Source: Gentiana macrophylla (lineage: Eukaryota > Streptophyta > Magnoliopsida > Gentianales > Gentianaceae). Taken from it: a stretch of DNA of 64,000 bases. Position 1 is the first letter of the stretch. Each line of letters starts with the position of its first letter. Where the stretch lies: assembly GCA_026214975.1 (NCBI GenBank), contig CM047815.1, positions 82,728,800 to 82,792,799 on the forward strand. Direction: 5' to 3'. A program made the translations under genes and the position numbers. The notes beneath the pieces are model-generated. The model was not told where the DNA came from. It worked only from the letters and a program-made list of their open reading frames with translations, and did no database searches. Below, piece by piece: positions 2,554 to 46,070 of the stretch.

Positions 2554-3218
2554 TCATGCTCCTCTTTTTTCGCAATCGAATGGTGGATACATACCAATAC
2601 AATCACATTCGTCAGCTGGGCAATTATCAGGACGGGGATCCGCGTCCGTTTCACACTTACCACTACATCCGCCAGCAACATCACCATCAGCATCAACATC
2701 ATCTTCATCGTCAATATTCGCCATTTTCATTTTGTAGATACTATTTGGCTGCTGATGCTGCAGGAGATGTTGCCTTCCCAGAGATGCTTCACCTGTCATC
2801 CGCCCTATATATATATATATATATATATATAGTAATAATTTTGGAAAGAAAAAATTAAAAATCATGTTATTCTGTCGTCCTACAATATTTTGTGTAGGTG
2901 CGCGCGTGGTGAATTTCTTCAGCTGATCGAGAAGAATTAAACTTAAGAATCAACAAAAAAGAAGAACACTCGATGGTGAAATTTAATTAAGGATACAACA
3001 ATATTGGATTCTGATTTTGGAGGAAAAGGGTGTGTTGAGATTTACAATCAAATGTTGTAGCCACATCAACAAACAGGGTTGGGATTTACAAGAAAAATTT
3101 GTCCTGTGTGTGTCATTGTGTGTGTGTCGTCTTACATAGTATTAATTCTCGTGAAAATCAATAATTATTGGCTAATAAACAAATTTCCCGCAGGGGATGA
3201 ATACATGAAAGTGAAAGC

Positions 3219-3265
<47 letters not shown>

Positions 3266-3572
3266 GCACTCTTATATATTTTGGCGGCATAGTCAATTTA
3301 TTTTTGAGACACCACACTGAATTTCGATTTTTTCAGAAAATCGAATTTATATGCAAAACTTAGTTGAAAAGTCGAAATTTTCACGGGGTATTATATATAT
3401 GTAGATAGATCGATTGTGGTGCACGCAACACTGTTGATTACTTACCGGAGAAGTGCAAAGCCGGTGATGAAGATTGATGATGAAGAGTTGCTGCTGAACC
3501 AATTTTCAACTGCCACAAAAGAGGAATGCTGAAAACAATACCAATCACCAACATTATTCCACTTTTTCCCAT
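2554..3572 (-). CDS. Small secreted cysteine-rich protein, copy A (two exons)
   Basis: Predicted exon 1 is 3446-3572 and exon 2 is 2554-2804, with a 641-bp GT-AG intron, giving 378 nt and 125 residues. Exon 1 encodes a classic signal peptide: MGKSGIMLVIGIVFSIPLLW, then a probable cleavage near IGSAA. Exon 2 encodes a Q/H-rich stretch, an acidic linker (DDEDDVDADGDVAGG) and a C-terminal block with the spacing C-x3-C-x10-C-x4-C-x1-C-x8-C, ending CEKRGA. A TATA-like box (TTATATAGG, complement of 3626-3634) lies about 55 bp upstream of the ATG. I do not recognise the family; role and partners are unknown. Support for coding is conservation of splice sites and frame in three copies, with indels in multiples of three. 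The intron is longer than in copy B (105 bp) because of extra AT-rich text including a microsatellite. It could be a decaying paralogue. Confidence 0.6.
3220..3263. repeat. (AT)n microsatellite in the intron of copy A
   Basis: About 22 uninterrupted AT units. This tract is absent from the shorter introns of copies B and C. Confidence 0.95.
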
Positions 3573-3625
3573 TCTTCTTCTATTCGACCACTGCTTTAAT
3601 TAATTGATATAAATATATATATATG

Positions 3626-3634
3626 CCTATATAA
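3626..3634 (-). promoter_or_regulatory. TATA-like box of cysteine-rich gene A
   Basis: On the minus strand the sequence reads TTATATAGG, about 55 bp before the start codon. The same motif at the same distance occurs upstream of copies B and C, although the region around it is AT-rich, so chance TATA matches are likely. Confidence 0.4.
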
Positions 3635-3853
3635 CTCTGATTAATTTACTTCATCTTCATGCCACCACCGCATACATATATATAGTGATTGCTGCAGACA
3701 TATAAAGACAATATATATTCGTAATATACATATAACGTTTTTTATTTTACTCTATTGTACATCCTGTATCAAATCTTCAGCCGGGTTTATAGGATTTGAA
3801 AAATAGCTTGAGACATAATTGATACGTATAGATTAGCACGAATCAGGTATATA

Positions 3854-5431
3854 TTTTTTTTAAAACAACTTTATTTTTATTGATAAACCAAATAAAAAGC
3901 TACAAAGTTCATTGCCATATCTACCACCCTAAGTTTACGTGATAGAGTCATCATGTGGCCTCCTTAAAACCTATGTGTGGCAAACCCAAGGTAGGAAAAT
4001 CCATCACATAGGGAAGAGTACTCGCTCTATGCACTCCCAATAAAATCCTGCCCTTGTAGATAATTGCATCGGTGGAAATCAAAGTGGAATAAATGTTGTA
4101 ACTTTGTAAATGCGCAGTGTGTATACGATCGGGGAGATAAAGTCGAAGATCGCCCGCACCCTATCCGAACTTGCACGAGCAAGCAGAGATTTGTGGTCAT
4201 TCTGGTGAATTTTGACATGACCGGTCCGTAAAGTGGCGGCTACACCCGTATGTCGAAGTTGTACCAAGTAAATAGAGGGAAGATCAAAAACTAGAAAAAT
4301 ACGAGCACTGGCGTTTGGCAAACAAAAGCAACAAAGACACTGGATTGCACCCTTAGCAATGCGATAGGGGTGCGATCAAAGGTAAAGCACGATCGTGTAC
4401 ACCACGTCCATGAGTAAACGTCAAACAAAGCGCACGGCTATAATCTTTAGCGGTGCATCGATCGCACAAAGTGTGATACACGGTATATGGAGTGCAATTG
4501 GTGAAAGCGGAAAAGTAGGTGAAATGAACAATATGACTGGTTTGCACCCTTCACAAGTGAAGAGTGCTTCCCGGATTATCGATGATGTATCGGATATGAA
4601 AGTGAGCCATGTAAATCATCATGGATTAAATTCAAAATGTGGGGTGGGACATCCTCCGCGAATAAAAATGTGATCATCCCTTCCAACGCTGCAAGGCGTC
4701 GGCGACCTCTGTTGCACTCCTATAGGCGTGAGAAATAGTATATGGCGGTCTAAGGATAGTCTGAATCTGAGTGACGGAGAGGCACAGGGCCATCCCCCAC
4801 CACTAGCACCAGACACCATACGATACATAAAGAGAATCCGATTCGATATCCACGGCACTGTGCATAAGTGCGCATCACGAAGACCAAATATGAGAGATTT
4901 AACCTCGGCATCCACCACCGTCCCCCGCCCAAAACACGAATGAAAAGCCATTATAAACGCCGCCATCGGAGTCACGAGGATACCTCCACCACCATACGCA
5001 ATTCCATTCGACACTCCCATCCACATTCAATTTGATATTGCCGGAGCGGCGCCCATCGAGGTAAGTCACTTTCCGCAGGGGTCGATTTGAGCTTGAAGGG
5101 TTGGAAGAAAGGGATGCCTCGCCGGATCCCAAGAGTTTGGCTTCAGTTCCTTCCGAAAAGCAAGTTGCCTAATAGCACGCTCAATTTGAATGATGGTCTT
5201 ATTTGAGTAGAAGGACGGACTTCGTCATGCTCGCATCTATTCCTCTCGGCCCAAATACCCCAACAAGCGATAACCGGTACTATAAAGGCGAAGGTGGAGA
5301 TACTAGGAGCTGAATTCTTCCAGAAGTGCAGCATAGGCACAATCCCTAACGTAGGAGTAAACCGTAGCCCGAAGTGATTCATAAAGTAATTCCAAACAGA
5401 ACTGGCAAAGTGACAATCAATAAACGTGTGA
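3854..5431 (-). mobile_element. 5'-truncated LINE (L1-type) with 17-bp target duplication
   Basis: Flanked by a perfect 17-bp direct repeat, CACGAATCAGGTATATA, at 3837-3853 and 5432-5448, with a T run at 3854 marking the poly(A) tail of a minus-strand insertion. Its 5' end starts inside the zinc-binding domain after the reverse transcriptase (FIDCHFASSVWNYF, then IACWGIWAERNRCEHD near 5250). RNase H text follows near 5090-4700 (KLNVDGSV, then AEVKSLIFGLRDA). The 3' UTR shares text with the LINE at 10457. Frames are broken, so it is inactive. The empty site survives in copy B at about 35633. Confidence 0.85.
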
Positions 5432-5490
5432 CACGAATCAGGTATATACTTTGTTTATAAAGACATTAATATACATATATATATAAACTG

Positions 5491-8400
5491 TTTTTTTAGG
5501 GAAATCAATCAATTTTATGAAATCAAGTCTGCCAAGGATGCGGCAATTACATCATGTGGGGGGTGAACACCCCAAGAAATAGCACCCACGGCCGTAACAC
5601 CATGTCAAGCAAGGAGGTGCGCTAGGACATTACCAGAACGCTTAACAAAAGTGAATTGGCAGGACGCAAAAGAAGCAGAAGCTAAAGCACAATCCCAAGC
5701 TAAGCAGCCAAAGATAAATAAATCCTCTGACAAATGAGACAAAGCCTGGACACATGGTAAACAGTCACTCTCGAAAATCACAGAGGGGAGACCAAGATGG
5801 CTTGCCTCTACTAATGCTGAAAGGATCGCACGCATTTCCAGCAACTCTGACATATCACCTGGCTCAAAATGCAAAGAAAATGCCGCGACAATAGATCCCA
5901 CCGAGCCTCAGAAAATCACTCCGATACCTGAGCCCGTATCTGTCACTGATGCGTCTGAATTACATTTCCAAATCCCCGAGGGTGGAGGGCTCCAAGCAAC
6001 CGGGTGAAGAACACTGCCTACCTCATGCTCAGTGTTGGAAGTAGCGTCCGAAAGACAATTTATGTAATTATTTTTTAAATTAATAAATGACAGATTTATT
6101 CTTATCTTATTATTTCCTTGGTGCTTATATATTATACACTACTGAAAACCCCAAGTTGTATCATATGTAACCATATAACTTAGTGTGTGTCGCACATGAG
6201 GATTGAGTTTATGGTGATACACTTGAAATGTTAGTTCATGGTGAACTTAATCAAAGTATGGGGTCCATTGATTAAACCACCATTAATGCGTCCAGAACAT
6301 TTTATGGTGTGACCGTCTTATCCGGACCGTCGATATTGGTTATATAAGTGGGGCATTTATATATGATGTAGTCATATAGGATTGAACCGATTTAATCTGC
6401 ATTTCTCATATAATTCCGTGATTGAGAAATCTTATTGAATCACAAGACGATCATATATAGATTAACCTTAATCCTGAAGTGATTGCATACTCCTATTTGT
6501 TTCAAGATATGGTTTGATGTGTTCATTAAGGATTGCTAAGAGGTGCGGTCCGAATCACTTTCACGTTGGCACTATTCTGGAATGAGTGAGAAGTGTGTGT
6601 CTCACATATATGAAATCCATTCCTTCTTGCGGGAAGTAGAAAGACAATCCCCTTATTTGTTAATCCTAGAAACTGATCGATCCGCGGAGTTTGTATTGGT
6701 TATGAACTAATTGATCACTAGTGGATTAATGGTAAATAAGGATAAGATGTATTGAAGAAGGTTTACGGAAATAATCCCGCTTCATTACAGATAGTTTATG
6801 GAGGGTTAGTCTGTATGTAATGATTATATCAATGGACACTTATCGACTCGACGTTTTGAGAATAAGCTATATCTATAATCGATAGAGTTTAGTTTCGGAT
6901 TTATGGTGGCGTAATTCCGGAATTAATAAGTTGAGTAGAAATATTCTGTTCGATGAATATTTTATTCAATTTATTGTAGCTACTTGTTATAGGTCCATGG
7001 TCCCCGAGTTAGCTCCTAACACGTGAGTGTTTTCTCGTTTTGTGGAATCTCGAAAATAAATTAAATAGTTGGTCTATTTAATGAATATTCAATATTATTT
7101 ATTTGGTAAATAATATGTAAAATTGAAAACACATTTTCTATTAAATTTAATGGCAAATGTGGCGCCATATATGTTGAATAAATTAGGAAAAGAAATTTTC
7201 ATAGATTATGTCACATGTGTAATTAATTATTTATTTGTTAGATAATTAATGGAAAAGAGATAAGAGATTGATTTTTTGGGAATTATCTCTTATCTTATGG
7301 CAAATATCTTTTCCTTATGTGAATAGGTAATTGTGGTGTGAAAATGATAACTCCTTTGACTAGTTATTTTCCTATATAAAGAGAGTTCCTCCTAGCACAA
7401 AAACACACACGTGTTTGCGCCATACGTACTAAAATAGAAGAGAAAAATTAGTTTCTTGTTCTAGTCATTAAGAGAATAAAAACCTAGGGTTTTTTCTTGG
7501 GCATATTCAAGGAGGTTCTGCGGCGAGGATCGACGTCCACCAGTCGTTGCTAGGAAATACAATCCGGAAGAGTGCGGCTTCTCCCCTTTGGTCGACTGCT
7601 TTCCCCTCTCCTTTTGGGTAAATCTTTAACCTTCTCATAGTTACGTTAATTATTTATGTGGATCATATCGTGGTACAATCGCATGCGAATTTATTCGTAG
7701 CTTCCACTGTGCATGATCGAACGTCTCGATCGGTGCTGTGAATCAGATCTGACGATCCAATTAGGGATCGGATCCGGATTCGGGTTTCTATATATCTAGC
7801 ACTGAGAACCCGATCCGCCTGAACATACTCCACTGCCGCTGCTCTAGATGTCGAGACAACTCGTGAGAGATAAATCAGCACACCCTCAAAAACCGCACCA
7901 CAACGTGCCTTCTATAGATACCACAAGGTCATGCAAGACTCAGATACTTCCGCTGCCGAGAACTTCAGCACAAGATCCCCGAAGAACTCCTGAAACCTTG
8001 ATGACCGCAGAGCCAGCCGATCTCTGAACAACGATGCCCTCCAAATCGCCCTAGCATAGTCACAAACAAATAAGACGTGAAACATAGATTCCGGTTCCCG
8101 CCCACACGCCAGACAGATACCATTCCCAAGCTGCCGCCGCAGCAGGTTCTCCCCAATTGGTAAGCATCCCTGCAGGCATCTCCAAAGGAAGTGTTGCACT
8201 TATGGCGAAGCAATGATCCGCCAGACATCACGCCACACCCTATCGGCCCCGGATGAAGACGACCCACCAACCCTTGAATATAGCCTACCCCGCATACTCA
8301 GAGCTAAGAAGTAGCCAGACTTAACTGAATAGCATCCCTTTCGATCGTAATGTCCGATACGTTTGTCCGGATGAGTAGGCTCAGCAATAGAGGTCTGAAG

Positions 8401-8916
8401 AATCGCATCAATCTCCTAAGATTGGAAGGCCTGCTGCAATAGAGAGAGATTCCACTGCCAACCCCCGGGCAACATAAGGTCATGAACCTGCAAATCCGTC
8501 GGCAGCGGCCGAGATGCATGGGAGATGCGGAAGGATGGAGGCCGAGCGACCCACGCATCATGAAAAACATAAACCGAGTGGCCATCCTTATACGCCAGTG
8601 AAGGCCAGATCGCAGCAAGTCTCACCCCTCCAATAAACTGCGCCAAAGGAAAGATGGGTGATGCCCCAAACTCCCTGCAATAACTGTCATACCTGGGTGA
8701 TGCTTAGCATTGAGAACCCGACTGACAAGGGCCGCATGATGCTGCAATAAACGCCAGGCCTGTTTTGCCAGTAAGGCCAGATTAAAGGCCTCAAGATCAC
8801 GAAAGCCTAATCCACCCAAGTGCTTCGGCAGACAACAAACCTCCTAGCTTCGCCAATGAACCTTCCGCTTATCCTCCAAGTCCCTTTAGGAAAAACCCCG
8901 AATATAGCGGTCGGTG
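5491..8916 (-). mobile_element. 5'-truncated LINE split by a solo LTR
   Basis: A minus-strand LINE whose tail is the T run at 5491-5497. Reading from its 5' end: the thumb region of reverse transcriptase at 8819-8622 (GGLGFRDLEAFNLALLAKQAW), a linker at 8646-8304, a zinc-binding domain at 8199-7912 (LWRCLQGCLPIGENLLRR, CLACGREPESMFHVLFVC), then a 1,769-bp solo LTR (6033-7801). After the LTR comes the RNase H domain at about 5990-5605 (WKCNSDASV, ELLEMRAILSALVEA, VIFESDCLPCVQAL, FVKRSGNVLAHLLA). Several frameshifts and stops are present. The catalytic fingers and palm of the polymerase are missing through 5' truncation. Confidence 0.82.
6033..7801 (+). mobile_element. Solo LTR (family shared with 52545-54330)
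   Basis: Begins TGTTGG and ends CTAGCA, the short TG...CA inverted ends of an LTR. Imperfect 5-bp flanks, CTCAG (6028-6032) and CTGAG (7802-7806), are consistent with an aged target duplication. A TATA box (CCTATATAAA) is at 7371-7380. It contains no coding sequence and no second LTR, so it is best read as a solo LTR left by recombination. It interrupts the LINE between the zinc-binding and RNase H domains. The opening text, including CCGAAAGACAATT, matches the complement of 54330 downward. Probably Copia or Gypsy; the class cannot be decided without internal sequence. Confidence 0.7.
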
Positions 8917-9265
8917 GAATACTTGGATATGTATTATGAACTTGTGCGATATATTTATCCACTTATATTTTTCGTATCATTACATATTATAGTCATATAA
9001 TAATCTTTAGACCAAAATTCTTCATAATGTCAGAGTTTGGATATATCATTTTCCTTTTTTATATTCATTAATGTTTTTCAAATTTATACACTTACACAGT
9101 AGATTTTCTTTTAATACAGTAGATATATAATTTGATGAAGAAGCAAGCGTAGACGTATCAATCAATTAATGAGATTCATTGTTCTAATAGTACTAATACA
9201 AATATGAGTGCAAATTGATTCGAAGTATTACGGTTTACCGGACGATTGTTACAGGAGAATAATAT
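8917..9265. other. AT-rich spacer shared with copy B
   Basis: Non-coding. It aligns with about 35680-35890 (shared text such as ACCAAAATTCTTCATAAT). No gene is seen. Confidence 0.6.
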
Positions 9266-9650
9266 TCTTTTTGAAAGGTATCATTCATTAATTCAAATCA
9301 AAACCACAACCTCCGAGTACATCTGCTGGCGGTGTTACGCTCCAATTTACCAAACCAACTACGGGCAAAACTACGTGCACAAGACAATGAGCTTGCATAT
9401 TGCCAGATTGCCGAATAAAAGTAAAAGAACAAGAGACAAAGGCTCTAGCTAGACTCAAACAATCAGAAACCATGCAGCCCAATGAAGAGAGGTCAGCATT
9501 CCCATTCTGTAAACGCAGGACAGAAACAAGGGTATATGTCTCTACTATAATCCTTTAAAAGCCATACGATGAAGACACAAAAAATGCCTGGAAAATTGCC
9601 AAAACCTCCAGTGGTTCGACAACCAAGTTGCCTAGGATTCTCTGAGTCAT
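9266..9650 (-). pseudogene. Old LINE RNase H relic
   Basis: On the minus strand, shifting frames give a C-terminal RNase H of the LINE type: AIFQAFFVSSSYGFKGLIVE, then SSLGCMVSDCLSLARAFVS and FTFIRQSGNMQAHCLV. A T run near 9266 may be the old tail. Part of the same relic is present in copy B (about 35900-36060), so this LINE predates the segment duplication. Confidence 0.6.
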
Positions 9651-10456
9651 CATGATAGAATAATAGGAATCGAAAAAACCAAATTTTGATGATAGAAAAG
9701 AGTTGATGCATGCATGGCCCATATTAATTCTAATCTCCGAATCGAGGGATAAATCCAAGCTAGTCTTTTTGTTGATTATAATTCTAATAATATAATGAAG
9801 AGAGTTAAAGACAAATTCTTCGAAATAAGGAGCATAATGTCTTCTTCCACAAATCAAAATATCAAAGTTGAGGGGATCAATCTTCGTTACATATGTATCA
9901 CTAGGCCGGCCAATTCCCATAGATCAATCTTTTGCATTAGTTTTCCATGTTATCACATGTAACGATCAACCTCTTTCTGTCCAACAGTGCTTCAACTCTT
10001 CCCTTATTTTTTATTTTTATTTTTTTTTACTTCAATTTTCTCCCCAACTTTTTTTAAAAAAAATCTTCTAGGCATTATTAACTCAAAATAACTACATTAA
10101 CGACAATTTTCGACTCTATCAATCATAAACAACCTTATAGAAAAATGGGAATGATATTTGCATTGATAATAATAATGCAAGGATTACGATATATTTACAG
10201 ACCAGTAAAAGATAGAGATCAATTCAATATATAAATCTATCTAAATCAACGACTCTATCTCAACAAACTTCTATCATTGTCATTATCTCAAATCAAATTT
10301 TTTTTCCATTATCTCTAACAGATAGCACAAACTAAACTAACTTTATTTTTCTTATAACCAAAAAAATCTCTATATATATCTATATCATAAAATACTCAAA
10401 GTTAAATAATTAATGTATTCTTGAATTTACTTTCTTCAAAATCCGGTCGGTAATCT
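9651..10456. other. Non-coding part of the duplicated segment
   Basis: AT-rich sequence matching about 36060-36880 nearly throughout, and in inverted orientation 58860-59065 (matching 9750-9970). Apparent open frames are not preserved between copies, so I do not call a gene. Confidence 0.65.
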
Positions 10457-12640
10457 CTTTTTTTTTTAATGAACGAAGCCTTTTATTAGAAAGAAAAGAA
10501 AAGGTTAAATCAAAGCCATATGCAGCCTCCCTTATACCAAATTGCGTGAGGCGAAGCATAGCCCTGCATGCCTCCTTAAAACCTATCGTGGCAAACCCGG
10601 TGTGGGAAAATCCTGCACAGCATAGGAAAAATCTGAAACACCTATGCTTCCAAAAAAATAAAAGACCCCAAAAATACAGTCGAAATGAAAAATATAGTAA
10701 TAGAAGCTTTGTTTGTGATCAGCATCATCCGTCTTGAAAGAAATGTTGATTGTCGTCTTATCTTGATTATGGATAGTTGAAATGGTGAGTGTCCATAGTG
10801 CTTTCAAAATGGTTTGCACCCTCCAAAAATTGAAGGGTGCTTCCCAGAGATGCTCCAAGCCTCTCCTCTTAATGTCGGCACTCCAAGATTTGATCCATTC
10901 TACTGAACGTGAAGTTTTCTCCTGTAACAAATCGTGGTGATATGGCATATAATTACGAAACAAAATAAAGAAGAGATAGTAAGAATAGAGACAACTGGTT
11001 TGCACTCTTCAATACATTGAAGAGTGCTTCCTAGAAAATCATCTTTGTTTGACCAAGCGAATAGCGAGGCAATCCAAGTCTATCGCGAAGAATAAGAAGG
11101 CGTAACTCTCCAAAGGAATAGGTGTGTGGTTATCATATTGACGGGATAAGCCGGTGGAACTCGAGGACTTAGCTAAGAAATCAGCATGCGCATTCGCTTC
11201 TATAAATATGCCGAATGGTGAAACCACGAGCTCGAATAATTTGTCGAGCTTGATGAAGAAAATCATGTTGCTCCCAAGGAATCGGCTTGTCATCTTGTAA
11301 AATGTAAAGAGGACCAACGAGTCCGTTTCCACAATAAATGGAAAAATATCATTCTAGCACAAAAGTCCACACCATAGTAGAGTGCTTTGACTTGACTTCA
11401 AAACTATTGGCGGTTCAAGAAAAGCAGAGAAAGCATAGAACCAAACTACCTTGATCATTACGGAGAATGAAACCGCTACGAGTTTCGGGGTTGTTAATCG
11501 AGAGCCATCCGAGTTAAGCTTAAAGGAATTAGTAGGAGGGGTATCCACTTGCTTGTGAGTGGGATTCTTTTGGGTTTTCTTTGAAAAATGCTTCAAGCGC
11601 CGAGATGCAAAAGAATATCATCTTTATTGTCTAGGCAGCCGGATGGGTTTTTGATAGAAAGCCATGGAAAGATCCTTGAGATTTGAGTGAGTCACGGTTT
11701 GCGGAGTGTCTAACATGCCTTCAAAAATAAATTTGTTTTGCGCCCATAGCTCCAAACAAACAAAAGTAGGGATATAAGTCTTTGATGTTGAAGCGCACTG
11801 TAGACTGGTTATCCCACCAACCCCAAAAAGCGTGTTTTAAGTCGACCATGTTGACATAACAACCCAACGAAGTTTGGAAAAATGCCAAACCTCGAAGCAA
11901 AGTCACAATGAAGGAAGAAGTGTTGTGTGGAGTCCTCATTTTGGCAGAATGGACATTTATAAGGACCAGCAAAACCCATACGTCGAATGACATCCGGCAT
12001 AGGAAGGAGACGGTTAACAAAGCGCCACATAAAAATAGATATTTTCAAAGGTATATTAGGCTTCCATATCATGCCCATTTCATGCAAAAGGGGTTTCTTA
12101 TCTCGGAGAACACTATAAGCAGAAGAGATAGAAAAAGTACAGATTTGGTAGGCTTCCAAACCCAAGTTCCGTACCACCCAAGAAAAGCCATGTCAAATTA
12201 TCGTGAGCGATGTCATGAACCATATTCATAGCACGCCGGTATGCATCTTCTCGGGATAAGGATAATCACCAAACTTCATACCCCATATCCCAAGTTTATT
12301 ACGAAATTTCCACGAGTTTGCAAGCAAAGGCCTTTTGAACATCAAAGATATTACGAATTCCCAATCCGTTTTCTTGATTGGGTCCACAAATTCTTTCCCA
12401 AGCACACCAATGTTTTTAGAATGGTCTTCCGTATTTCCCCAAAAAAAGCGGCAAAAAGGAGTGGATATTGTTTAAAACCGAGCGAGGGACTTGAAGAAGC
12501 GACAAGTGTGTGTATAGGTATCGAGCTCAACACATGCTTAATTAAGATAAGTGCGCCACTGGGGAAAGGAGACGAGATTGCCACCCCTCTAAACGTTTAT
12601 TTATCTTATCAATCAGAAATTGAAAGTAGTGTCTTTTAGA
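10457..12640 (-). mobile_element. 5'-truncated LINE with RT thumb, zinc-binding and RNase H domains
   Basis: Minus-strand LINE with a T-run tail at about 10457-10467. Its first recognisable text is the end of reverse transcriptase: DKINKRLEGWQSRL, then LILIKHVLSSIPIHTL near 12600-12500. The zinc-binding domain is at 12177-11809 (KPNIPLKISIFMWRFVNRLL, CPFCQNEDSTQHFFLHCDFA). RNase H follows at about 11570-11100 (NSFKLNSDGSRL, then VETDSLVLFTF and EANAHADFLAKSS). The long 3' UTR contains three near copies of GGTTTGCAC(C/T)CTTC text (10811, about 11000, and 4537 in the other LINE). The duplicated sequence around 36875 lacks the insertion. Confidence 0.82.
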
Positions 12641-19118: not shown

Positions 19119-19124
19119 AGTTTT

Positions 19125-19231: not shown

Positions 19232-19235
<4 letters not shown>

Positions 19236-19272: not shown

Positions 19273-19273
<1 letters not shown>

Positions 19274-34205: not shown

Positions 34206-35305
34206 GTCAGTAATTTTTCCCCTTTTCCTTTTATTTTCTTTTAAACCTTAAATCCATAAATAATAAATATAATATTCCGTCTTTCGCAAAATACACGTCT
34301 GTCTCTTTCGAAAGGTCGGGATATTTCAGTTAGTCTCCCTCAAACGAAATCTACAACGGCATACATAAAGAAGTTGAAAGCTGTGAAAGTTCTTATTTAT
34401 TTATATGATATGACACGACACGACACTCAAAAAAAAAAAAAAAAAAAAAAAAAAAGGGTAAAAGAGCACACCAGCCCTGCATCCACGGGTTTGTTTATGC
34501 TCTCTCAGTCTCACATAAGATTATTGAAAGACAAGTATATATTTAAAACATACAACTCGTAAATTGAAAACAGTGAGTCGATCGATCGAGTTAGTTCCTC
34601 ATCACCATCATTCATGCTCCTCTTTTTTCGCAATCGAATGGTGGATACATACCAGTACAATCACATTCATCAGCTGGGCAATTATCAGGACGGGGATTCT
34701 CCGTTTCACACGTACCACTACATCCGCCAGCAACATCATCTTCATCGTCAATATTTGCCATTTTCATTTTATAGATACTATTTGGCTGCTGATGCTGCTG
34801 CAGGAGATGTTGCCTTCCCAGAGATGCTTCACCTGTCATCCGCCCTATATATATATATAGTAATAATTTTGGAAAGAAAAAATTAAAAATCATGTTATTC
34901 CGTCATACAATATTTTGTGTAGGTGCGCGCAACAATGTTGGTTACTTACCGGAGAAGTGCAAAGCCGGTGATGAAGATTGATGATGAAGAGTTGCTGCTG
35001 AACCAATTTTCAACTGCCACAAAAGAGGAATGCTGAAAACAATAGCAATCACCAACATTATTCCACTTTTTCCCATTCTTCTTCTATTCGACCACTGCTT
35101 TAATTTATTGATATAAATATATATGCCTATATAACTCTGATTAATTTACTTCATCTTCATGCCACTACATACATATATATAGTGATTGCCGCAGACATAT
35201 AAAGACAATATATATTCGTAATATACATATAACGTTTTTTATTTTACTCTATTGTACATCCTGTATCAAATCTTCAGCCGGGTTTATAGGATTTGAAAAA
35301 TAGCT
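34206..35305 (-). repeat. Duplicated segment, copy B (cysteine-rich gene unit)
   Basis: Matches 2150-3810 with few substitutions. The main differences are a longer A run at 34429-34455 and loss of about 540 bp of intron sequence present in copy A. The join to the Copia at 34205 is a breakpoint not present in copy A. Confidence 0.9.
34612..35076 (-). CDS. Small secreted cysteine-rich protein, copy B (two exons)
   Basis: Exon 1 is 34950-35076 and exon 2 is 34612-34844, with a 105-bp GT-AG intron, giving 360 nt and 119 residues. Exon 1 again encodes a signal peptide identical in plan to copy A, and the protein ends with the six-cysteine block (CSGTC, DNC, ECDC, FDCEKRGA). Compared with A, exon 2 lacks six residues of the acidic linker and one residue before PRPDN, and has one extra Gln. 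Every indel is a multiple of three. Substitutions include silent changes (for example in the Ala, Asp and Tyr codons). This is the most compact copy and the best candidate for a working gene. Function not recognised. Confidence 0.65.
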
Positions 35306-36900
35306 TGATTATCCTACAACTGACAAAAAAATAAATATGGTTGGCCGGTGATGATGTAGCAATGAGCCTCATTCATTAGAAAAAAAATTACCTTTAGCAT
35401 CTTTTGCATTTACAGGTTATACTCTCAAAATCTTCTTTCCAAATTTATAGGTTGCGTTCTGTTTCCTTAAATTCACGAGAACCTTCGAACTCGAGCAGAA
35501 TATATTTAAGTGTACACTGTAATTAAGATATATAGTTGATGAATTTCTTCAATCAAGTTATTTATTTAGTTTTTAAATATCTTCAGTCGCAGAACCAATA
35601 ATCTAGACCTAATTGATACATATAGATTAGCACGCATCAGGTGTCTACTAGTTTATCAAGACATTATTATATATCATTGGTTGAATATATGTATTTTGAA
35701 TTCGTGCATTATATTGATCAACTTATATTATTTGGGTCATTAAATTAATGTGAGTCATATAAGAATCATTAGACCAAAATTCTTCATAATATCTGAGTTT
35801 GGATTATTACGTTTTGAATATATTAGTTGTTTTTCAAAATTATATACATACTTATACGGTAGTATATAATGTGATTAAGAAGAAAGCATAGATTTAGCAT
35901 AAGACAATGAGCTGAAATATTGTCAGATTACCGAATAAAAGTAAAAAAAAAAAAACAAGACACAACAATCAGAAACCAAGCAGCCCAAAGAAGAAGAGAG
36001 TTATGCACTCCATTCTATAGATGCTGACCAAGTTGCCTAAGATTCTCTGCGTCATGATAGAATAATAGGATTCGAAAAATCCAAATTTTGATGATAGAAA
36101 AGAGTTGATGCATGGCCAATATTCTAATCTCCGAATTTAGGGATGAATCCAAGCTGGTTTTTTTGTTGATTATAATTCTAATAATAAAATAAAGAGCATT
36201 AAAGACAATTCTTCCAAATAAGGAGCATAATGTCTTCTTCCACAATTCAAAATATCCAAGATGAGGGGATCAATCTAGCTTCGTTACATATGTATCAATC
36301 TTCGTTACATGTGTATCACTAGGCCGGCCACAGATCAATCTTTTGCATTTTTTTTCCATGTTATCACATGTAACGATCAACATCTTTCTGCCCAACAGTG
36401 CTTCAACTCTTCCCTTATTTTTTATTTTAATTTTTTTTTACTAAAAATTTTCTCCCCAACTTTTTTTTTTTTATATTTAAATCTAGCTTCTAGGCATTAT
36501 TAGCTCAAAATAACTACATTAATGACAATTTTCGACTCTATCAATCATAAACAACCTTATACAAAAATAGGAATGAGACTTGCATTGATAATAATAATGC
36601 AAGGATTACAATATATTGGCAGTGCAGTAAAAGATAGAGATCAATTCAATATATAAATCTTTCTAAATCAACGACTCTATCTAAACAAACTTCTATCATT
36701 GTCATTATCCCAAATCATTTTTTTCTTTCATTATCTCTAACAGATTGCACAAACTAAACTAACTTTATTTTTCTTATAACCAAAAAATCTCTCTATATAT
36801 CTATATCATAAAATACTCAAAGTTAAATAATTAATGTATTCTTGAATTTACTTTCTTCAAAATCCGGTTTGTAATCTATCTTTTAGAGATAGAAACTAGA
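35306..36900. other. Non-coding continuation of copy B
   Basis: About 300 bp (35309-35608) unique to B, then sequence equivalent to 3812-3853, 5449-5490 and 8917-10456 of copy A without the three LINEs. Includes the old LINE RNase H relic (about 35900-36060). No conserved gene. Confidence 0.65.
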
Positions 36901-37576
36901 TTAAACCGTACCATTATTTCTAGATTTTAAAGTAAAGTTATTTGTACAATTTTGCTGCAGTCTTATTTTACAGTTGCAACATTTTATTTAACACAGTCTG
37001 AATGATCTATATTCTTGTATTTTAAAAAAACATTGTTTTCATTAACCTAGAAGTGAACTTTGGAATGCTAATCATATAGTTGTCAAACCTCTTATACCAC
37101 TGCCTTGGAGCTGCTTAAGTCCATAAAAGCACTTCCTCAACTTGCAAACATACCATTCTTTTTCCAAGAACTTGGAATCCCTCTCTGTTGAGTCATGCAT
37201 ATCTCTTATCTACATCTCTACGAGAAAAGATATCTTCACATCTTCTTGCTCAAGTTCAAATCATGATGTGCAACCATTTCTAGTAGCACCGTGATAGAAG
37301 TGTGTCTGACTACCGGAAGAATATCTCATCATAGTCCACCCCATCTTTCTGATTGAACCATCTTGGAACCAAACGTGCTTTATATCTTATGCCCTCAGCT
37401 GATGACATTTTGAAGACCCATTTACAAGTGACTATCCTCTTTTCTTGTGGTTGTTTGACCAAATCCCAAGTTTAGATGGTTCAGATCCCTCCACCTCTTC
37501 CGCAACCTAAAGTGCATATCCAACTATATCCTCAAACTCATACCTGCTGGGAGGTCCAACATTTGTCCTACTAGAT
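36901..37576 (-). pseudogene. Copia RT fragment, copy B
   Basis: Matches 12650-13420 (start of reverse transcriptase on the minus strand, including the text encoding LRKCFYGLKQ-like residues near 37120), with a deletion of about 85 bp relative to A near 37470. It ends near 37576, just where a MULE-like fragment begins. Confidence 0.8.
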
Positions 37577-38660
37577 CTAGCTAGTGACAACTATACTCTT
37601 ATCACAATCAACTACTATCGGTGCAGCTTTACTAATAGGAGCCATAACTTTCATTTCAAAATCATTCAACCTTGTATCAAATTCCAATTCTTCTTTCACC
37701 AGATCATACAATTCAAGAAATGAAACGCTTTTTTTCACGTTTAACAACTTGGTCACATGCTCTGTTTCATTTCCTACATAATTCCAAACCCAATCACCAT
37801 CGACATTCTTCCCAAACTCAACCGGATAACATGCATATATCGAAACTTTGCATTCCCTACCCATGACGAATCAACAATATCCTGCTTTAATCCATTAATA
37901 CAATGATTACAATCAGGGGCAGGTAAAAAACAAACAACAATGGACTTAAAAGATAACGAGTACAAACTTGTTTTTGTCTATTACGCAGCTTAACTACTTT
38001 CACATGACTGTAATTGAACTCAATTAAATACTTAAGGGGACTATAGTTGAAGAATGGCAATTCGATGGGAAAACATCAAACATACTTAGTCAAAAAGTAG
38101 GAAGTTTGGACAAGCCAACATCTCAATCTCTTCCAATGCATCTTCTTCCCCACTTCATTACATTATATACTAACATGTTACTGAAAAATGCTCCGAAACT
38201 AAGAAAAATAATACATACCCGACAGAGATTTTGGAGGAATTTTCAGTTTGTTAACCTCTTCAAACAATGGCGGATTTGGTTGCTTAATCGATTTTGGAGC
38301 TCTAATCGAGTCACTACAATGGCGGATTTGGTTGCTTAATCCTTTTTGGAGGTTTACACGATCAGAAAATGGTGCAATTTTTGCCCACAGTCCCTACTTT
38401 ATACACAATATGGGTCGGGTCAACATTGGGGGGAATATTTGAGGGTAATTTTGGAGGGAAAATTTCAAAACCTAGTTTGGTTCGCCGGAATGTCGCCGGA
38501 TTTTTGGAGATGGGGGAGTTGCAAAAGGGTAATATAGGTAGTTTGCCAATTATTAAAAGTTTGGGTCTAATAACCCAATACTTTGGTACGCCAGGTTAAG
38601 GCAACCAAAACTTTTGTGGAGGAGGTCATTTAAGCAGCCGCCCCTTTTTTTTCTAGGATA
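37577..38660 (-). pseudogene. MULE (Mutator-like) transposase N-terminus and terminal region
   Basis: The minus-strand frame 37864-37577 reads MGRECKVSIYACYPVEFGKN, WVWNYVGNETEHVTKLLNVK, SFLELYDLVKEELEFD and ends IVVDCDKSIVVTS. This is the pattern of the N-terminal domain that precedes the transposase in plant MULEs. Upstream (37970-38660) is non-coding and ends in GGGCGGCTGCTTAAATGACC text resembling a MULE terminal inverted repeat. No transposase core is present, so it is a truncated end. The other terminus is missing. Confidence 0.55.
38262..38343 (+). repeat. 26-bp direct repeat in the MULE terminal region
   Basis: The text ACAATGGCGGATTTGGTTGC with its following CTTAATC occurs at about 38263 and again at about 38318, 55 bp apart. 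Confidence 0.85.
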
Positions 38661-39009
38661 ATTTCCGGGTACTATGTGAACCAATCTTGAGCTTTCTTAT
38701 GCTCACCTCATGAGTTCACGAGTATGCTCAAATAAAAATACTTGTACTAAATAATGTATAATCCCCGCCACATCAAATTATACATTTTAATGACTTATTT
38801 GTGAGTTAAATCGATAATTTAGATGTTTTAATGAAAAATGATTTTTTATTTCTCGCTAGAATATTAACTGAAAAAGAAATATATCAAGACTATTTTATAT
38901 TACTCGTAGTCATTTGAAAAAAAAATTTAAATCTAACTTAATGTACATACACTTGAATTCAACTCGAGTTTGAAGGTGTTTGTGATTGGGTTTAAATTCA
39001 ATAATCATG
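38661..39009. other. Unassigned AT-rich spacer
   Basis: No coding or repeat signature. Confidence 0.5.
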
Positions 39010-40155
39010 TTTTTTTTTGAAGGGAAAACACAATTTTATTAAGCCATATCGGCGAAGAAAGCATTTACAATTTCTGTTGGGGGGAGGTGCCCCAAACAAT
39101 TAAGTCCCTCGCAGACAGACCTGCTTGGGCTAATAAATGGGCTGGCATATTGCCATTACGCTTAATGAATGAAAAAGAACAAGATCGAAGGCCTTCACAG
39201 ATTTTAGGCAAATCCGCAACAAGGCAGCCGAGGGAAGATATGTCATTCAAGGGGCCTTCCAAACGTATTATGCAGGAGAGGGAGTCCGTTTCAATGATCA
39301 CGGACCTAGCTCCGAGGGTTGCTGCAGTGAAGAGACCTTGCTGGATGGCCATGAGCTCAAGAGTTTCGTCGTCGAGGTTTCCCAAGATATGTTGCGAAAG
39401 GGCATGTCGAATTTGGCCTTCGGCATCACGAGCAATGACTCAATGGCGGAGGATTCACCGGAGTGGCTGTGATCTGTGTTCAACTTGATGGCACCGCCCG
39501 ATGGGGGGTCCAAGTAGAAGGCCATTTCTTTGGCACTTGTGATCCAAGCGGGATTTTCAATCATAATATATTCTTTAGCTTCCTCCTCCGCCGCAGAAAT
39601 AAGTCGATCGACACTTGATGATTTGTTGTCAAAAGCCAGGCACAACGAGCTTTCGGATATGCCATAAGATAGTGATGGTTGTCACAACTTTTTGATCTTC
39701 GCCTTCCTTCAAAAGGTAGTCAAGGAAACTGGCTAGATCCCAACTCACCGCAAGGGGTGACTCAACTAGGCTGCCGTTGACGGTCTTCCAAACAATTTCC
39801 GGCAACGAGCAATAAAAGAATAGGTGCTTTAGATCCTCATTGTGGTGTCCGCAAAGTGCACAATGCCCATCACTTAACTTCCGCAATCGTGTAGGCCTCT
39901 CCAGATGAAGTGTTGGACCCGGGGTAGAAGCGGGAGATTCCCAATACGGCGCCATATATAATCCGGGGATGTGGAAGTGGATGCGGTGGAGAAATGCAAC
40001 CCTCCTTGACTGAGCTGCCGAGCAAGTGTGTAACCCGATTTAACAGAATAGTTCCATTTTTTGTCATAGTGCCAAACAATATTGTCCCGGTGATTTCCGG
40101 TTGGTAAGGGGATGCTTAAGATTGCATGTGCCTAATGCTATAACGCCACAGGTTG
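39010..40155 (-). mobile_element. 5'-truncated LINE: zinc-binding and RNase H domains
   Basis: The T run at 39010-39018 marks the tail. On the minus strand, the zinc-binding domain is at 39955-39629 (CALCGHHNEDLKHLFFYCSL), then a linker, then RNase H at 39560-39065 (GAIKLNTDHSHSG; ELMAIQQGLFTAATLGARSV; IETDSLSCIIRLEG; FSFIKRNGNMPAHLLAQAGL). Frameshifts separate the N- and C-terminal halves of RNase H. Same general family as the LINEs at 3854 and 5491, different copy. Confidence 0.82.
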
Positions 40156-40156
40156 T

Positions 40157-40440
40157 GTCCCGGACAGGGCCGGCCCTATGCTAAGGCCGGCGAGACCCGG
40201 GTCTTAGGCCCAATTCTGTCGGGGGGCCCAACGGTACATGTTTCGCTAAAAGAAAAGAAAATCGTGTAGATTTAATCCGATTCAACCTAATATAATATGT
40301 TAATTTTCTTTTTTGATAAAGGCCCAAATTTTTTTTTTACTCTAATTGATAAAGGCCCCAATAAAAAATTTTACTTGACCAAAAAAATAGATATATACAA
40401 ACAAGTTTTATTATTTTTTTGCATTTACGGATTGTAAAAA
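40157..40440. mobile_element. Possible hAT-like remnant (CAGGGCCGGCCC end)
   Basis: Starts with CAGGGCCGGCCC, the kind of terminal repeat seen in plant hAT elements, followed by repeated GGCCC-rich words and T-rich text (AGGCCCAAATTTTT, AAGGCCCC). Related words occur at 46430-46830 and 52090-52160. No transposase and no clear second end. Confidence 0.35.
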
Positions 40441-40448
40441 CGCGATAA

Positions 40449-41110
40449 GTGTTGGAAAAAATGTAGTACTTAGGATTTGACAGAGAATTAGAAACTCCAA
40501 GGCACGTTAATAACGTTGTCCTTTAAGAGATGTTTTGTCCCACACGATTTGTCACTAAGGGATCAAATGAAAATCTCTTTCAGGATACAATGGGGGTGTT
40601 TGATTCAAACAGTGACTTGTTTGAATCAAACCCGATAACACTCAAAGTTTTTCTAATGATGTTGTCAAATTTATGGATTTTCGTCTTCATACTTATGCCT
40701 TTTATAGGTTGCAAGTACCCCATAAACGAATGGATGTACTCCTTGCACCGGATTAAAACATGCAACCCTTACACAAAAGGGTAAGTACATATAAGTTCGA
40801 AAATGCGTGTATCTAAAAATGCATATCCCTTCATGAACTGATGCCGTGGTTTAGGTTTCGGGGGCGTTGCCCCTGAACCCCCACGAGTTGGCGCCCCTCG
40901 ACCCACCGCGACCGACCGGGCGGTCGAACCGCTTCGCATGGCGATAACATTAATTCGTGACGCAACTCGTATGCAAACGATAACCAAAATATTTATTTAT
41001 TAAAAATATCTAACGATAAGTATGCTTTTAAAAAAATCAACTAAAAGCGCCTAATTCGAGCGGCAGTGCCTTGCGTCTAATACAAGTGGCGCCGACTCTT
41101 GGTCCCGGAG
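40449..41110 (+). mobile_element. Possible solo LTR
   Basis: Begins TGTTGGAAAA and contains a GC-rich block near 40858-40925 (GGGGGCGTTGCCCCTGAACC, then CGACCGACCGGGCGGTCG), a composition typical of some plant LTRs. No TSD and no coding sequence. Assignment is by resemblance only. Confidence 0.3.
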
Positions 41111-41944
41111 AGATATTTTTATGAATAATTTCAAAAGATGCTAAAGGTATGATTTAATTTGTTCGAAAGAAAGAGGCTCATCGCCATCGGTACATCAGCA
41201 TCAACCATTTTGTTGGTCATGGTATTTCAGTTGTACAGAAAATCAAACTCTATTATTCAAAGCCTCTAAGCCCAGCTGAAGATTTCATACACGAGAATAC
41301 AATAAAGTAAAACAAAAAAAAAACAAATATGCAATCACACAACACAACAATTGTGTCGTAAACATGAAACAATACACTTTTTTTTGTATATTATTATTAT
41401 TATTATTTTTTTTTTGTATATTAATTATAATCGATTGTATAAAATTGTATTATAATGATCAGTTGTTATTATATGTATATTAAGACAATATATATTGTCT
41501 TTATATGTCTACTGCAATATACACTACTATATATGTATGCTGTGGCATGAGGATGAAGCAAATCAATCAGAGTTAGGCATATATATATATATATATATTT
41601 ATATCAATAAATTAAAGCAGTGGTCGAATAGAAGAAGAATGGGAAAAAGTGCAATAATGTTGGTGCACTACTACAAAATAGGCCTATTAAGACAATAAAT
41701 ATAAGACATTTTTATTAAAATGCCCTATCAGGCATGTAATGGGGCGTTCATCAAATGTGGTGCACTTGCTACAGTGAAATGTGTTCTTCTAATTATTTTT
41801 TTTATAAAAAAATTGGATGAAGGGGCGTTTGGAAACGTATTGAAAGGATTTTATTTATTTACTACTTTTTTTTTGGTGAAAAATGGGAAGCGGGTAAAAA
41901 AACGCGCCTTAATTCTAACTTTTCATCCCCTCAGACACAAAAGC

Positions 41945-42120
41945 AGCTAGGGCCGGCAGTTCTCATTCCATAACCTCCGCCTCCATTCCACCGCTCTCCA
42001 CTTCGGAATTCCTCTTCTCCACCGTCGGATCTTTTTCTCTCCTCTCTTCTCCGCTCCTCTCCTCCCTTCTCATCAATCTTCTCTCTTGCTCTCGGGCCTA
42101 AATCCCAATCACAGGCGCCA
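41945..42120 (+). other. Captured 5'-UTR-like exon in the CACTA
   Basis: A CT-rich stretch (TCTTCTCCACCGTCGG, CTCTCTTGCTCTCGGG) ending TCATTAG followed by GTATTTTTTTT, which looks like a leader exon and the start of its intron. It lies just upstream of the NF-YB-like piece, consistent with capture of one gene's leader, first intron and start of coding sequence. Confidence 0.5.
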
Positions 42121-42287
42121 TCTCATTAGGTATTTTTTTTAAATTTAATTTCAGTCCCCAAATTCAAATCCCCCTTCACTGCTCACCATCTCTTTATGTT
42201 ATTCTTTGTATTAAATGCGTTAAATTTGTATAATTCTGATTGTTTGTGCCAAATTTCGGATTCAAATGCCGAAAATTAGGTATTGGA

Positions 42288-42357
42288 TATGGCGGATGCA
42301 ACTCAAGGAGGGATGGGTCCGGCCAGTCCTGGAGGTGGGAGCCACGAGAGCGGTGGG
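42288..42357 (+). pseudogene. NF-YB (fragment): Captured NF-YB N-terminal fragment
   Basis: The ATG at about 42288 opens MADATQGGMGPASPGGGSHE then SGGD, a stop (TAG) and SP. NF-YB proteins of the group close to Arabidopsis NF-YB8/10 share an N-terminus with SPGGGSHESGGDQSPR just ahead of the histone-fold. Here the Gln codon has become TAG and the match ends within a few codons, so the histone-fold is not included. NF-YB is a CCAAT-box-binding transcription factor subunit. As captured it can produce at most a 24-residue peptide. The downstream frame to 42508 (YAETLLHRLGIFGPDGG...) is not NF-YB and I do not recognise it. Confidence 0.7.
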
Positions 42358-44271
42358 GACTAGAGTCCCTGGTCTAGGTACTTATGCTGAAACTCTGCTT
42401 CATAGACTTGGAATTTTCGGTCCAGATGGAGGCCTTGAAGAGGAGAATGCAGAAATATCCTGTGGAAATGGTGTAACTGTAAGACCTCCGTTTATTGATA
42501 ATATATGAACACAGAAGTAGGTTGTTAGATGTGTAACTAGGAAATTCTTAATAGGTAAGAAACAAGTGGAAATATTTGATTTAGTGATGTTAAGACTTAA
42601 GAGTACATACCCTCCTAGTCAGATGCTGAAACTATATATGAACATGTTACTCTAGTATCTTGGCATGTAAGCATAAGTACTCTAGGTTGACTGGAAAGTA
42701 ATATCATTCTGTTATTAATCTTGAGAGATTCATGTAACATTTGAGTGGATTCGAGCACTGAGCTTTTCGAGTTGAATCTGTAAGTAGCCTAAAATGGATG
42801 CAGCCTTGTATATTCTTGGATTGATCATTGTTTGATGTGCGGAAGGGACATAAATACGTTGGCTTAATTGTACCCATCACTCTTGATGCATTTTGTGTTT
42901 GCGTTTGAGTTCAAATTCAAAAGTGAATATTAGATTTTCATATGCACATTAGAATCCTTCTCACGATTCAGGATATAGATCTTGCAACTTGACTGCCTGA
43001 ATTATTCAGGATATGCTTTAGTTTTTCTTTTTGTCTTGAAGCTATGATCTATCCTTCAAAGAAGTGCAATAGCTTTTCTATCTTTCCTCCCTTTCATGCT
43101 AATTCATTATATATTATTTATTTGTGTGAAGAGGATGCACTCTTAATATAGGGCGCACAATACTTTTGTACAAGGTTTCTTTGTTGCGTTAGCTCATGTT
43201 ACATTACAAATCATATCTTAGTTGTTTAACTTTTTCTGGGATCGATCTCGGTCAATGTTACAGGGATATTAACATATTATGATATGAGACTGGTCAGAGA
43301 TGTATTGCTCATCATGATGCATTTAATCCTACTGAGTATCATCCATGTAAGAGCAGTGAGGTTATGTTTAACTACAAGTCTATAACTCAAATATTCTCTT
43401 ACAACACTTGTATGGTATGTCAAAAACAAGATTTATAACTCGAAATGTTCTTAAAAATAATAGAGGTATGTCAAAGTTGGAGCTTTATAACCTAAAATCA
43501 TGAATCCAACAAATTTGGTTGTTTTTTTTTTTTGCTGTGTATTGGTTTTAAGCCTTATTGTTTCAGGTTATTTGTGATTTGTATTTCAATGATTTTTTAG
43601 GGCTTTGATATTGTTACTTGGGTGCAAATTTCAGCTTTGTCGGGATATTTCTTAGTATGTTTGTATGATTTTTCTGAATCATTGCTGATGGTACTTTTAG
43701 ATCATCTGCTTGTGACATTTTTTTATTCATCTTGGTAGATAATTTGTCTTCGATAAAAGTGTCTTACTAATGTTCAAAAAAGAATCTTGATTATTAGATG
43801 AGCATTTTTTGGCTCAGTTTTCGGCTAAAAATGTGGCTATGTTGTGTTTTATATGCTTTCTTGACAGTTCACAAGTGTTTGGGAATAAGGATGATATAAT
43901 CCAACATGTTCTCTACCAACGTGGGGTGGGGGTTTACACTTTCTGGCTGTCATCCATGTTTTTTTATGCATGTGATTTGTGAGAAATTATCTCTCACATG
44001 ATTTGAAGCTTTTGAAACATGAACAACCTGTATTGTTAAGAATATTGCCAATATTGCATGGGAAACAAAGCATTGTGTGAAAAAAATAAAGGATCAATTT
44101 ACTTTTGATATTTGAGCTTTCTTAGTGTAGATAACATGTGTTCTTATTCTGGATAATTAGTATTGGTTGATAGGTGTAAATAGCATTCATGTAATTACAC
44201 AAACATGTACACCAGCTATTATACGTCTTGAAGAATCTGACTTTTGTTTATTTTCTTTGTGCAATGGGTAG

Positions 44272-44491
44272 ACCACAGGAAGAAAAAGAGGAAGGACAAG
44301 AAAGACACCCAAAAAATGGTGAATGGGACTATTGATGATTATAATTCCTCCTTACCAAAGGTAACTCACCGCCTCTTACCCCGAAAAAACGGTGAATGTG
44401 ACTGTTTGTGTATGAATGTAATAAACAACACACTCAGTTCTTTTGTTTTGATTCTCTTACTATGCTTGTCTTCACTTTTGCAGAATTTGTG
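44272..44491 (+). other. Captured exon pair of unknown gene in the CACTA
   Basis: A lysine-rich frame (RKKRKDKKDTQKMVNGTI, DDYNSSLPK) ends at a GTAACT donor-like site near 44360. A matching acceptor (TTGCAG) at 44478-44483 is followed by AATTTGTGA, which would close the frame as NL-stop. It reads like the last two coding exons of a gene. The source gene is not recognised. Confidence 0.4.
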
Positions 44492-45084
44492 AGAATGTTA
44501 AGGCTTGAATTTGCAAGCCACATCATTAGTGATGTTTCTACAGTTGGTAGTCTCAAAAAGTAGATGACAACACCGCAAACATGCTTATGGTTTTTGTGTT
44601 GGTGGTTGAAGAAGATTGATAAGGTAAATGCACCCTTGATGTTTTCTTGAATATTTGTGTTTTGTTACCTATATATTGAAGTTACTATTATGTTGAATGT
44701 TTAAACCATACAGACTTGTACTTTGTCATAAAGTCTCCCTCTTTGTTATTTTGTTTTGCAAGAAATGATGAAGTATTCAAAGTCTTGGGAAAGCTCATGA
44801 TCTTGGAAATCTCATGTTATGATATTGAATGCCCAATAGCTTTTAGTATGTGTATATTTTTTATTATCCAGACATTTTTTGCTTATTCTTTTGTTTGATG
44901 AACTTATGCTATGTTTATGGTAGTCAAAAATATGATTGGATAATGGTAGGAAGGTGGTATTGGTAATGTAATTACGGTTGGTCAATTGCATCATAAGTTT
45001 TTATTTAGTTGTTGCTTTAGTAGTGGATTGAATGTGAATGGAAAAGAATATATACATGAAGGAATTAATTTTTTTTAGATTAAA

Positions 45085-45335
45085 AATTCCAGATGAGGCG
45101 TTTTAGAATGCCTTAATAGGGTTATGTTTTTGAACATATTAAGGGCGTTTTCAAACGCCCTATCAGGGCTGTGTTAGTGCGTTTTCAAACGCCCTGTCAG
45201 AGATGTGTTAGGGCGTTCCAAACGTCTTGAAAGCCTATTACAACGTCGACAGAAAGGGCGTTCTATGGAAACGCCCCATCCTTAAAAACGCCCTAATACA
45301 CTCTTATATAGGGCGTTTTGAAACGCCCTTAAAGA
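45085..45335 (+). repeat. CACTA subterminal repeats
   Basis: At least eight GGGCGTTT or AAACGCCC half-sites in both orientations, some as palindromes (GGGCGTTTTCAAACGCCC near 45142, GGGCGTTTTGAAACGCCC near 45311). Related GGGGCGTT words occur at 41740 and 41822 near the other end. In CACTA elements such arrays bind the TNPA-like protein. Confidence 0.85.
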
Positions 45336-46070
45336 CCTTTTTTGGTGTAGTGGTGATTGCTATTGTTTTCAGCATTCATCTTTTGTGGCAGTTGAAAATT
45401 GGTTCAGCAGCAACTCTTCATCATCAATCTTCATCACCGGCTTTGCACTTCTCCGGTAAGTAACCAACATTGTTGCGCGCACCTACACAAAATATTGTAT
45501 GACGGAATAACATGATTTTTAATTTTTTCTTTCCAAAATTATTACTATATATATATATATATATATATAGGGCGGATGACAGGTGAAGCATCTCTGGGAA
45601 GGCAACATCTCCTGCAGCAGCATCAGCAGCCAAATAGTATCTATAAAATGAAAATGGCGAATATTGACGATGAAGATGATGTTGATGGCAGATGTAGTGG
45701 TAAGTGTGAAACGGATGAGGATCCACGTCCTGATAATTGCCCAGCTGACGAATGTGATTGTACTGGTATGTATCCACCATTCGATTGCGAAAAAAGAGGA
45801 GCATGAATGATGGTGATGAGGAACTGGATCGATCGATCGACTCACTGTTTTCAATTTACGAGTTGTATGTTTTAAATATATACTTGTCTTTCAATAATCT
45901 TATGTGAGACTGAGAGAGCATAAACAAACCCGTGGATGCAGGGCTGGTGTGCTCTTTTACTTTTTTTTTTTTTTTTTTTTGTGAGTGTCGTGTCGTGTCA
46001 TATCATATAAATAAATAAGAACTTTCACAGCTTTCAACTTCTTTATGTATGCCATTGTAGATTTCGTTTG

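Follow-up and report, generated by a model that had tools for sequence, protein, structure and literature searches.

A young, apparently local gene family of Gentiana macrophylla predicted to encode secreted, acidic six-cysteine peptides

Introduction

Plants commonly have orphan cysteine-rich peptides, and the locus described here raises the question of whether a short two-exon reading frame, repeated at one place in the genome of Gentiana macrophylla, is a gene for such a peptide and to which structural class its product might belong. The DNA analysed is a stretch of 64,000 nucleotides (GenBank assembly GCA_026214975.1, contig CM047815.1, positions 82,728,800 to 82,792,799 of the forward strand), called the window below, and positions given without a contig refer to it. 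An initial annotation, made from the sequence alone, had proposed a three-copy family of a secreted six-cysteine peptide gene, maintained by purifying selection and matching no peptide family that could be named. A protein-coding, secreted six-cysteine family is still the best reading, and we put at about two in three the probability of its fuller form, in which the genes code for acidic, secreted peptides with six cysteines and make up a family that is young and apparently local. We regard this family of predicted secreted cysteine-rich peptides at one locus as real and probably functional.

Copies and gene structure

Direct reading of the window and scripted splicing place copy A at 2554-3572 (minus strand, predicted 125 residues), copy B at 34612-35076 (minus strand, 119 residues) and copy C at 41639-45806 (plus strand, 120 residues with an insert removed), with phase-1 introns of 641, 105 and 115 base pairs (bp), respectively. 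All these coordinates, lengths and phases bear out the initial annotation, as does the copy B junction 34950|34844. In copy A, exon 1 (3446-3572, 127 nucleotides) carries the predicted signal peptide and the start of the propeptide, and is followed by the intron (2805-3445, 70% A+T) and by exon 2 with its stop codon (2554-2804), which specifies the remaining propeptide and the six-cysteine domain of the precursor; the corresponding parts of copy B are exon 1 at 34950-35076, the intron at 34845-34949 (73% A+T) and exon 2 with stop at 34612-34844. A DNA search of the source genome (1.79 Gb) returned at least nine matches from seven scored candidates, all on one contig, these counts being lower bounds. 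Besides A, B and C, the matches comprise two short ones and two further copies about 375 kb away: C' (G000:C11:83140382-83140861; predicted 122 residues, intron of 111 bp) and A' (G000:C11:83147398-83148216; predicted 125 residues, intron of 441 bp), both with an intact frame. The three copies proposed initially are thus real, but the family has five, of which C' and A' lie in an inverted duplicate, and at the sensitivity of this search it is restricted to a single locus.

The two-exon layout with a phase-1 intron is common to all five copies, and frames are intact in four of them (A, B, A' and C'), copy C being split by a CACTA-type element. The splice sites are identical in all copies (donor G|GTAAGT, acceptor AG|GGCGG), and the four intact copies have the start context GAAGAAGAATGGGA and introns richer in A+T (66-75%) than their exons (55-56%). 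The cysteine block C-x3-C-x9/10-C-x4-C-x1-C-x8-C, given correctly in the initial annotation, keeps its six cysteines identical in all five copies, across which the PRPDNCPADECDC core and PPFDCEKRGA are likewise invariant. The short intron is common to B, C and C' and the long one to A and A', with the same indel ends across the tandem and inverted arrangement; such sharing, by one deletion in the short or one insertion in the long copies, points to gene conversion or to the existence of two lineages of the gene.

Predicted protein

The N-terminus of the precursor is hydrophobic, the Kyte-Doolittle maximum over 15 residues beginning at residue 5, and the -3,-1 rule permits cleavage after residues 15, 26, 27, 28, 29, 36 and 38, of which 26-29 lie behind the hydrophobic stretch. 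The signal-peptide check suggested with the initial annotation therefore comes out in its favour as far as hydropathy and the -3,-1 rule go, with cleavage most plausibly predicted at 26-29. A hydrophilic, acidic propeptide (...NIDDEDDV...) follows the signal and precedes a C-terminal cysteine domain of 38-39 residues with an isoelectric point of 4.07-4.31 and a net charge of -4.3 to -5.3. Cysteine-rich peptides are generally defined by a precursor of less than 170 amino acids, a signal peptide and at least four cysteines in the mature part (PMC5731061, in part), and the family, with 119-125 amino acids, six cysteines and a signal peptide that hydropathy and the -3,-1 rule predict, falls within this definition.

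Coding status and selection

Comparisons of alignment columns, codons and indels were made among the four intact copies, and the codon counts exclude indel stretches. Variable columns number 2/127 in exon 1, 3/113 in the propeptide part of exon 2 and 10/117 in the cysteine part, against 22/155 in the 5' flank, 5/105 in the intron and 15/254 in the 3' flank. Consequently, the signal and propeptide part is less variable (5/240) than all noncoding DNA (42/514; p 0.001), and also less than the noncoding DNA without the A+T-rich 5' flank (20/359; p 0.038). Only one of its 78 codons varies in the amino acid, with a pooled ratio of nonsynonymous to synonymous polymorphism (pN/pS) of 0.08, whereas seven of the 36 codons of the cysteine domain do so (Fisher p 0.0012) with a pN/pS of 0.98, and this domain is as variable as noncoding DNA (10/117 vs 42/514, p 0.85). 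Averaged across the six pairwise comparisons of intact copies, the whole-gene values are 0.0197 nonsynonymous (dN) and 0.0415 synonymous (dS) substitutions per site, a ratio of about 0.47. For the gene as a whole, this ratio is not near 1, the value named as refuting the initial annotation, but the pN/pS of the cysteine domain is. The initial claim of purifying selection on the protein appears to hold for the signal and propeptide part, which looks constrained from these counts, and not uniformly: in the cysteine domain, constraint is not apparent beyond the cysteines and short motifs. The pattern is closer to that of a secreted peptide whose mature part varies than to one of uniform purifying selection.

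The indels also favour a coding gene. All five pairwise-distinct exon indels (lengths 3, 9, 6, 18 and 3, about four events) are multiples of three, compared with 8/29 noncoding indels when gaps at the alignment ends are excluded (Fisher p 0.005; 0.012 when counted as four events). When each copy takes one indel, a simple neutral simulation that starts from copy B and follows four independent lines keeps all four frames open in 1.0-1.5% of runs, a share that falls to 0.08% with two.

However, several observations weigh against a coding gene under constraint. Triplet repeats are expected to yield in-frame indel lengths anyway, and without the approximately two events in a CAG/CAT repeat only 2/2 exon indels are left (p 0.10), so the early contrast between exon indels in multiples of three and freely varying introns is true but weak. 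Among variable codons only, 1/4 in the signal and propeptide part and 7/9 in the cysteine domain alter the amino acid (p 0.22), and for the A/A' pair dN exceeds dS. Copies C and C' differ at 4/363 exon and 0/546 noncoding positions (p 0.025), an exon excess that is the opposite of constraint; either relaxed selection in copy C, which is broken, or conversion of C' by B may account for it. Gene conversion is likely and could mimic constraint, the changes are few and linked, and for these reasons all p values are nominal. Furthermore, AlphaFold models (five rows each) were unusable, with a mean predicted local distance difference test score of 52.3 for exon 2 and 55.1 for the cysteine domain.

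Nor was any credible relative of the family found in Pfam, NCBIfam, PDB sequences or a set of 5.8 billion proteins. In the last set the copy B precursor yielded one word-sharing candidate and none at E <= 10, and the alignment of the four intact precursors yielded 1269 candidates, none of them a match, both being weak negatives as the search had no positive control for plant coverage. In Pfam two families other than defensins each matched one of the precursors (E 0.17 and 0.27), and the best PDB match was a B-cell receptor chain (E 0.089), all of which were taken as chance. With nothing credible from Pfam and NCBIfam, the profile searches leave the family as unrecognised as the initial annotation had described it.

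Could the frames then be non-functional, belonging to a recent duplicate block and open merely through the youth of the copies? The small divergence given above would suit such an origin, as would the C/C' exon excess, one broken copy, one degenerate fragment and the presence of retroelement domains in 5/10 scanned open reading frames of the window (one of them under its curated cut-off); moreover, with substitutions alone, all four frames remain open in 14-24% of the simulated runs. We nevertheless regard this explanation as unlikely in view of the pN/pS of the signal and propeptide part together with the in-frame indels, of splice sites that are identical beside varying introns, and of a domain that has kept all its cysteines while its other positions are as variable as noncoding DNA. 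Taken together, the tests favour a coding gene, short of proof.

The CACTA-type insert in copy C

Exon 1 of copy C is interrupted by an element of 3687 bp (41666-45352, plus strand) that begins with CACTACTACAAAA and ends with TTTTGGTGTAGTG, 20 of the first 30 bases agreeing between the two ends, and that is flanked on both sides by a 3-bp target copy, GTG. Such termini, together with a target duplication of 3 bp, characterise CACTA elements. The first piece of the exon (41639-41665) has the target copy at its 3' end, and the remainder (45353-45455) opens with the second one (45353-45355); the phase-1 intron of 115 bp (45456-45570) and an open exon 2 with stop (45571-45806) follow. As the insert lies in exon 1 and the uninterrupted site is preserved in C', copy C is the broken one. 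No open stretch of more than 94 amino acids was found within the insert (41666-45352). One open stretch inside the element, MADATQGGMGPASPGGGSHESGGD at 42288-42363, appears to resemble the N-terminal end of NF-YB transcription factors from plants and may be a captured gene fragment.

Comparison with known peptide classes

The cysteine spacing matches no class formula in the examined parts of PMC11253845 and PMC7168108. To this extent the initial statement that it matches no nameable family is upheld for whole formulas, although it does fit the defensin pattern over four successive loops, C3 to C7, and the knottin pattern in three loops out of five. A possible assignment is to a knottin-like peptide with an inhibitor cystine knot, conceivably a protease inhibitor. 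Plant knottins follow C X3-6 C X5 C X3-5 C X1-2 C X5-6 C and are neutral or positive in net charge (PMC11253845, in part). Like knottins such as squash trypsin inhibitors and potato carboxypeptidase inhibitor, the family has six cysteines in 31-32 residues, and its size and loops 1, 3 and 4 (x3, x4 and x1) are in range, but loop 2 has 9-10 residues instead of 5, loop 5 has 8 instead of 5-6, and the net charge of -4.3 to -5.3 is at odds with that of knottins. Presumably, C1-x3-C2 and C4-x1-C5 would form the eight-residue knottin ring, and loop 5, C-T-G-M-Y-P-P-F-D-C, recalls in our view the loop of Bowman-Birk and sunflower inhibitors. The Bowman-Birk reactive loop is C-T-x-S-x-P-P-x-C; the loop of the family, C-T/I-G-M-Y/L-P-P-F-D-C, is one residue longer, with Gly where the reactive position would be, and Pfam gave no match to this inhibitor family. 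A neighbouring gene, K3, lends the knottin assignment some further weight, as two of its three six-cysteine units fit 4/5 knottin loops and it is also acidic and also has these units after a phase-1 intron, yet its sequence shows no similarity to the family beyond that of shuffles. A knottin-like peptide is thus conceivable but doubtful.

Cyclotides share with the family C-x3-C, C-x1-C and a third loop of x4. Of the two cyclotide formulas, CYC01 reads C X3 C X4 C X6 C X1 C X4 C and CYC02 reads C X3 C X4-5 C X4-6 C X1 C X4-5 C (PMC7168108, in part). Loops 1, 3 and 4 fit CYC02, but loop 2 (x9-10 vs x4-5) and loop 5 (x8 vs x4-5) are too long for both.

Plant defensins have eight cysteines, C X10-11 C X3-5 C X3 C X9-11 C X4-9 C X1 C X2-3 C (PMC11253845, in part), and the x3, x9-10, x4 and x1 loops of the family all lie inside the C3-C7 ranges X3, X9-11, X4-9 and X1. 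A CXXXC bonded to a CXC is the signature of the CS-alpha-beta fold (PMC4695807, in part), and the secreted, cysteine-rich AtLURE1 peptides form a species-specific, local six-cysteine cluster that is functional with positive selection undetected (PMC3525529, in part); in the Arabidopsis defensin-like (DEFL) family, neutral evolution is reported to be prevalent (PMC5731061, in part). These parallels would suit a defensin-like (CS-alpha-beta) peptide that is without the first two cysteines and has the last one shifted, acting as a species-specific extracellular signal in the manner of AtLURE1. However, C1 and C2 are absent, the last loop has 8 residues instead of 2-3, the domain is acidic, the CSGKC/CSGTC stretch after Gly-Gly or Gly-Arg looks, in our judgement, a poor helix, and no Pfam defensin profile matched any of the four intact precursors, all of which makes this assignment improbable. 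By analogy, the AtLURE1 precedent nonetheless indicates that a cluster of this kind can function without detected positive selection.

Proposed function

Under the preferred reading of a young family of secreted six-cysteine peptides, exon 1 would supply the signal peptide and the start of the propeptide and exon 2 the rest of the acidic propeptide with the C-terminal domain. The precursor would enter the secretory pathway and lose its propeptide, and the domain would fold on three disulfides, most likely I-IV, II-V and III-VI; this pattern is favoured because pairing of C-x3-C with C-x1-C is common to the defensin core and knottins, where the shared I-IV and II-V bonds would by analogy leave III-VI. 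The mature peptide may act extracellularly through its variable loops 1-2 and 5. Since its acidic charge makes a membrane-lytic role unlikely, it would most likely serve defence or cell-cell recognition as a binding or inhibitor peptide.

A bolder proposal, and one we consider distinctly doubtful, is that the family represents an undescribed structural class of acidic plant disulfide peptide, intermediate in structure between knottin ring and defensin core, that arose and was amplified at one locus and has an unconstrained or diversifying cysteine domain behind a fixed precursor part; it would then be a species-specific recognition or inhibitor system in the making. The peptide is in any case one that the class formulas compared leave unclassified. 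If expressed, the locus offers a natural series of four intact paralogues differing mainly in two loops, a decayed fragment and a copy broken by a transposon for which the empty site is also preserved, a series useful for testing the origin and divergence of new disulfide peptides.

Neighbour gene K3 and the surrounding locus

Within 334 kb, made up of the window with its flanks together with the mate region, a loose framework pattern applied to all six frames detected only the five family genes and K3. The latter (C11:82978050-82978551, about 185 kb beyond the window) is modelled with two exons and a phase-1 intron, exon 1 being a signal exon, MAKVFHVILLSYFLTVG, and carries three tandem six-cysteine units spaced x5,x4,x3,x1,x6 (two units) and x4,x4,x3,x1,x8 (one unit) in an acidic repeat region. 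It resembles the family in its signal exon, phase-1 intron, six-cysteine units and acidity, but its unit spacings differ from x3,x9/10,x4,x1,x8 and its core is C-P-x-x-C-x-C where the family has C-P-x-x-x-C-x-C. The C-P-x-x-C-x-C core is that of squash inhibitors. Among 12 pairs of K3 and family domains, no similarity beyond composition was found, the best pair being equalled by 106/500 shuffles with fixed cysteines, and K3 was accordingly rejected as a homologue and kept as an architectural parallel only. Pfam, PDB sequences and the large protein set (6 candidates, none at E <= 10) gave no credible match to K3, an antibody chain (E 0.99) among the PDB sequences being taken as chance. The presence of K3 suggests, short of proof, a local cluster of cysteine-rich peptide genes.

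The window part of the inverted segmental duplication spans 34918-63991, with its mate at C11:~83.115-83.149 Mb. In reverse orientation, C11:83115001-83147089 matches C11:82799493-82764270, with main blocks 94.6-96.4% identical, and 83115001 is the edge of the DNA examined rather than a boundary of the duplication. The duplication thus measures at least 35 kb at about 95% identity, with both arms on one contig and about 315 kb between the edges seen. A scaffolding artefact may underlie it, 83.003-83.115 Mb being outside the region read. C' and A' sit in the inverted duplicate, and the insert of copy C is missing from the mate.

The two short DNA matches, one at window 59206-59259 and the other in its mate, derive from a degenerate fragment at 59161-59259 on the plus strand, which consists of an exon-1 tail (HHQSSSPTLH, twice) with the splice donor, and within which neither a start nor exon 2 was found. 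Outside the window, an open frame of 499 amino acids at C11:82859911-82861407, apparently an ordinary gene near the cluster, contains the stretch DTGSDVSWLQC and looks like a putative aspartyl protease.

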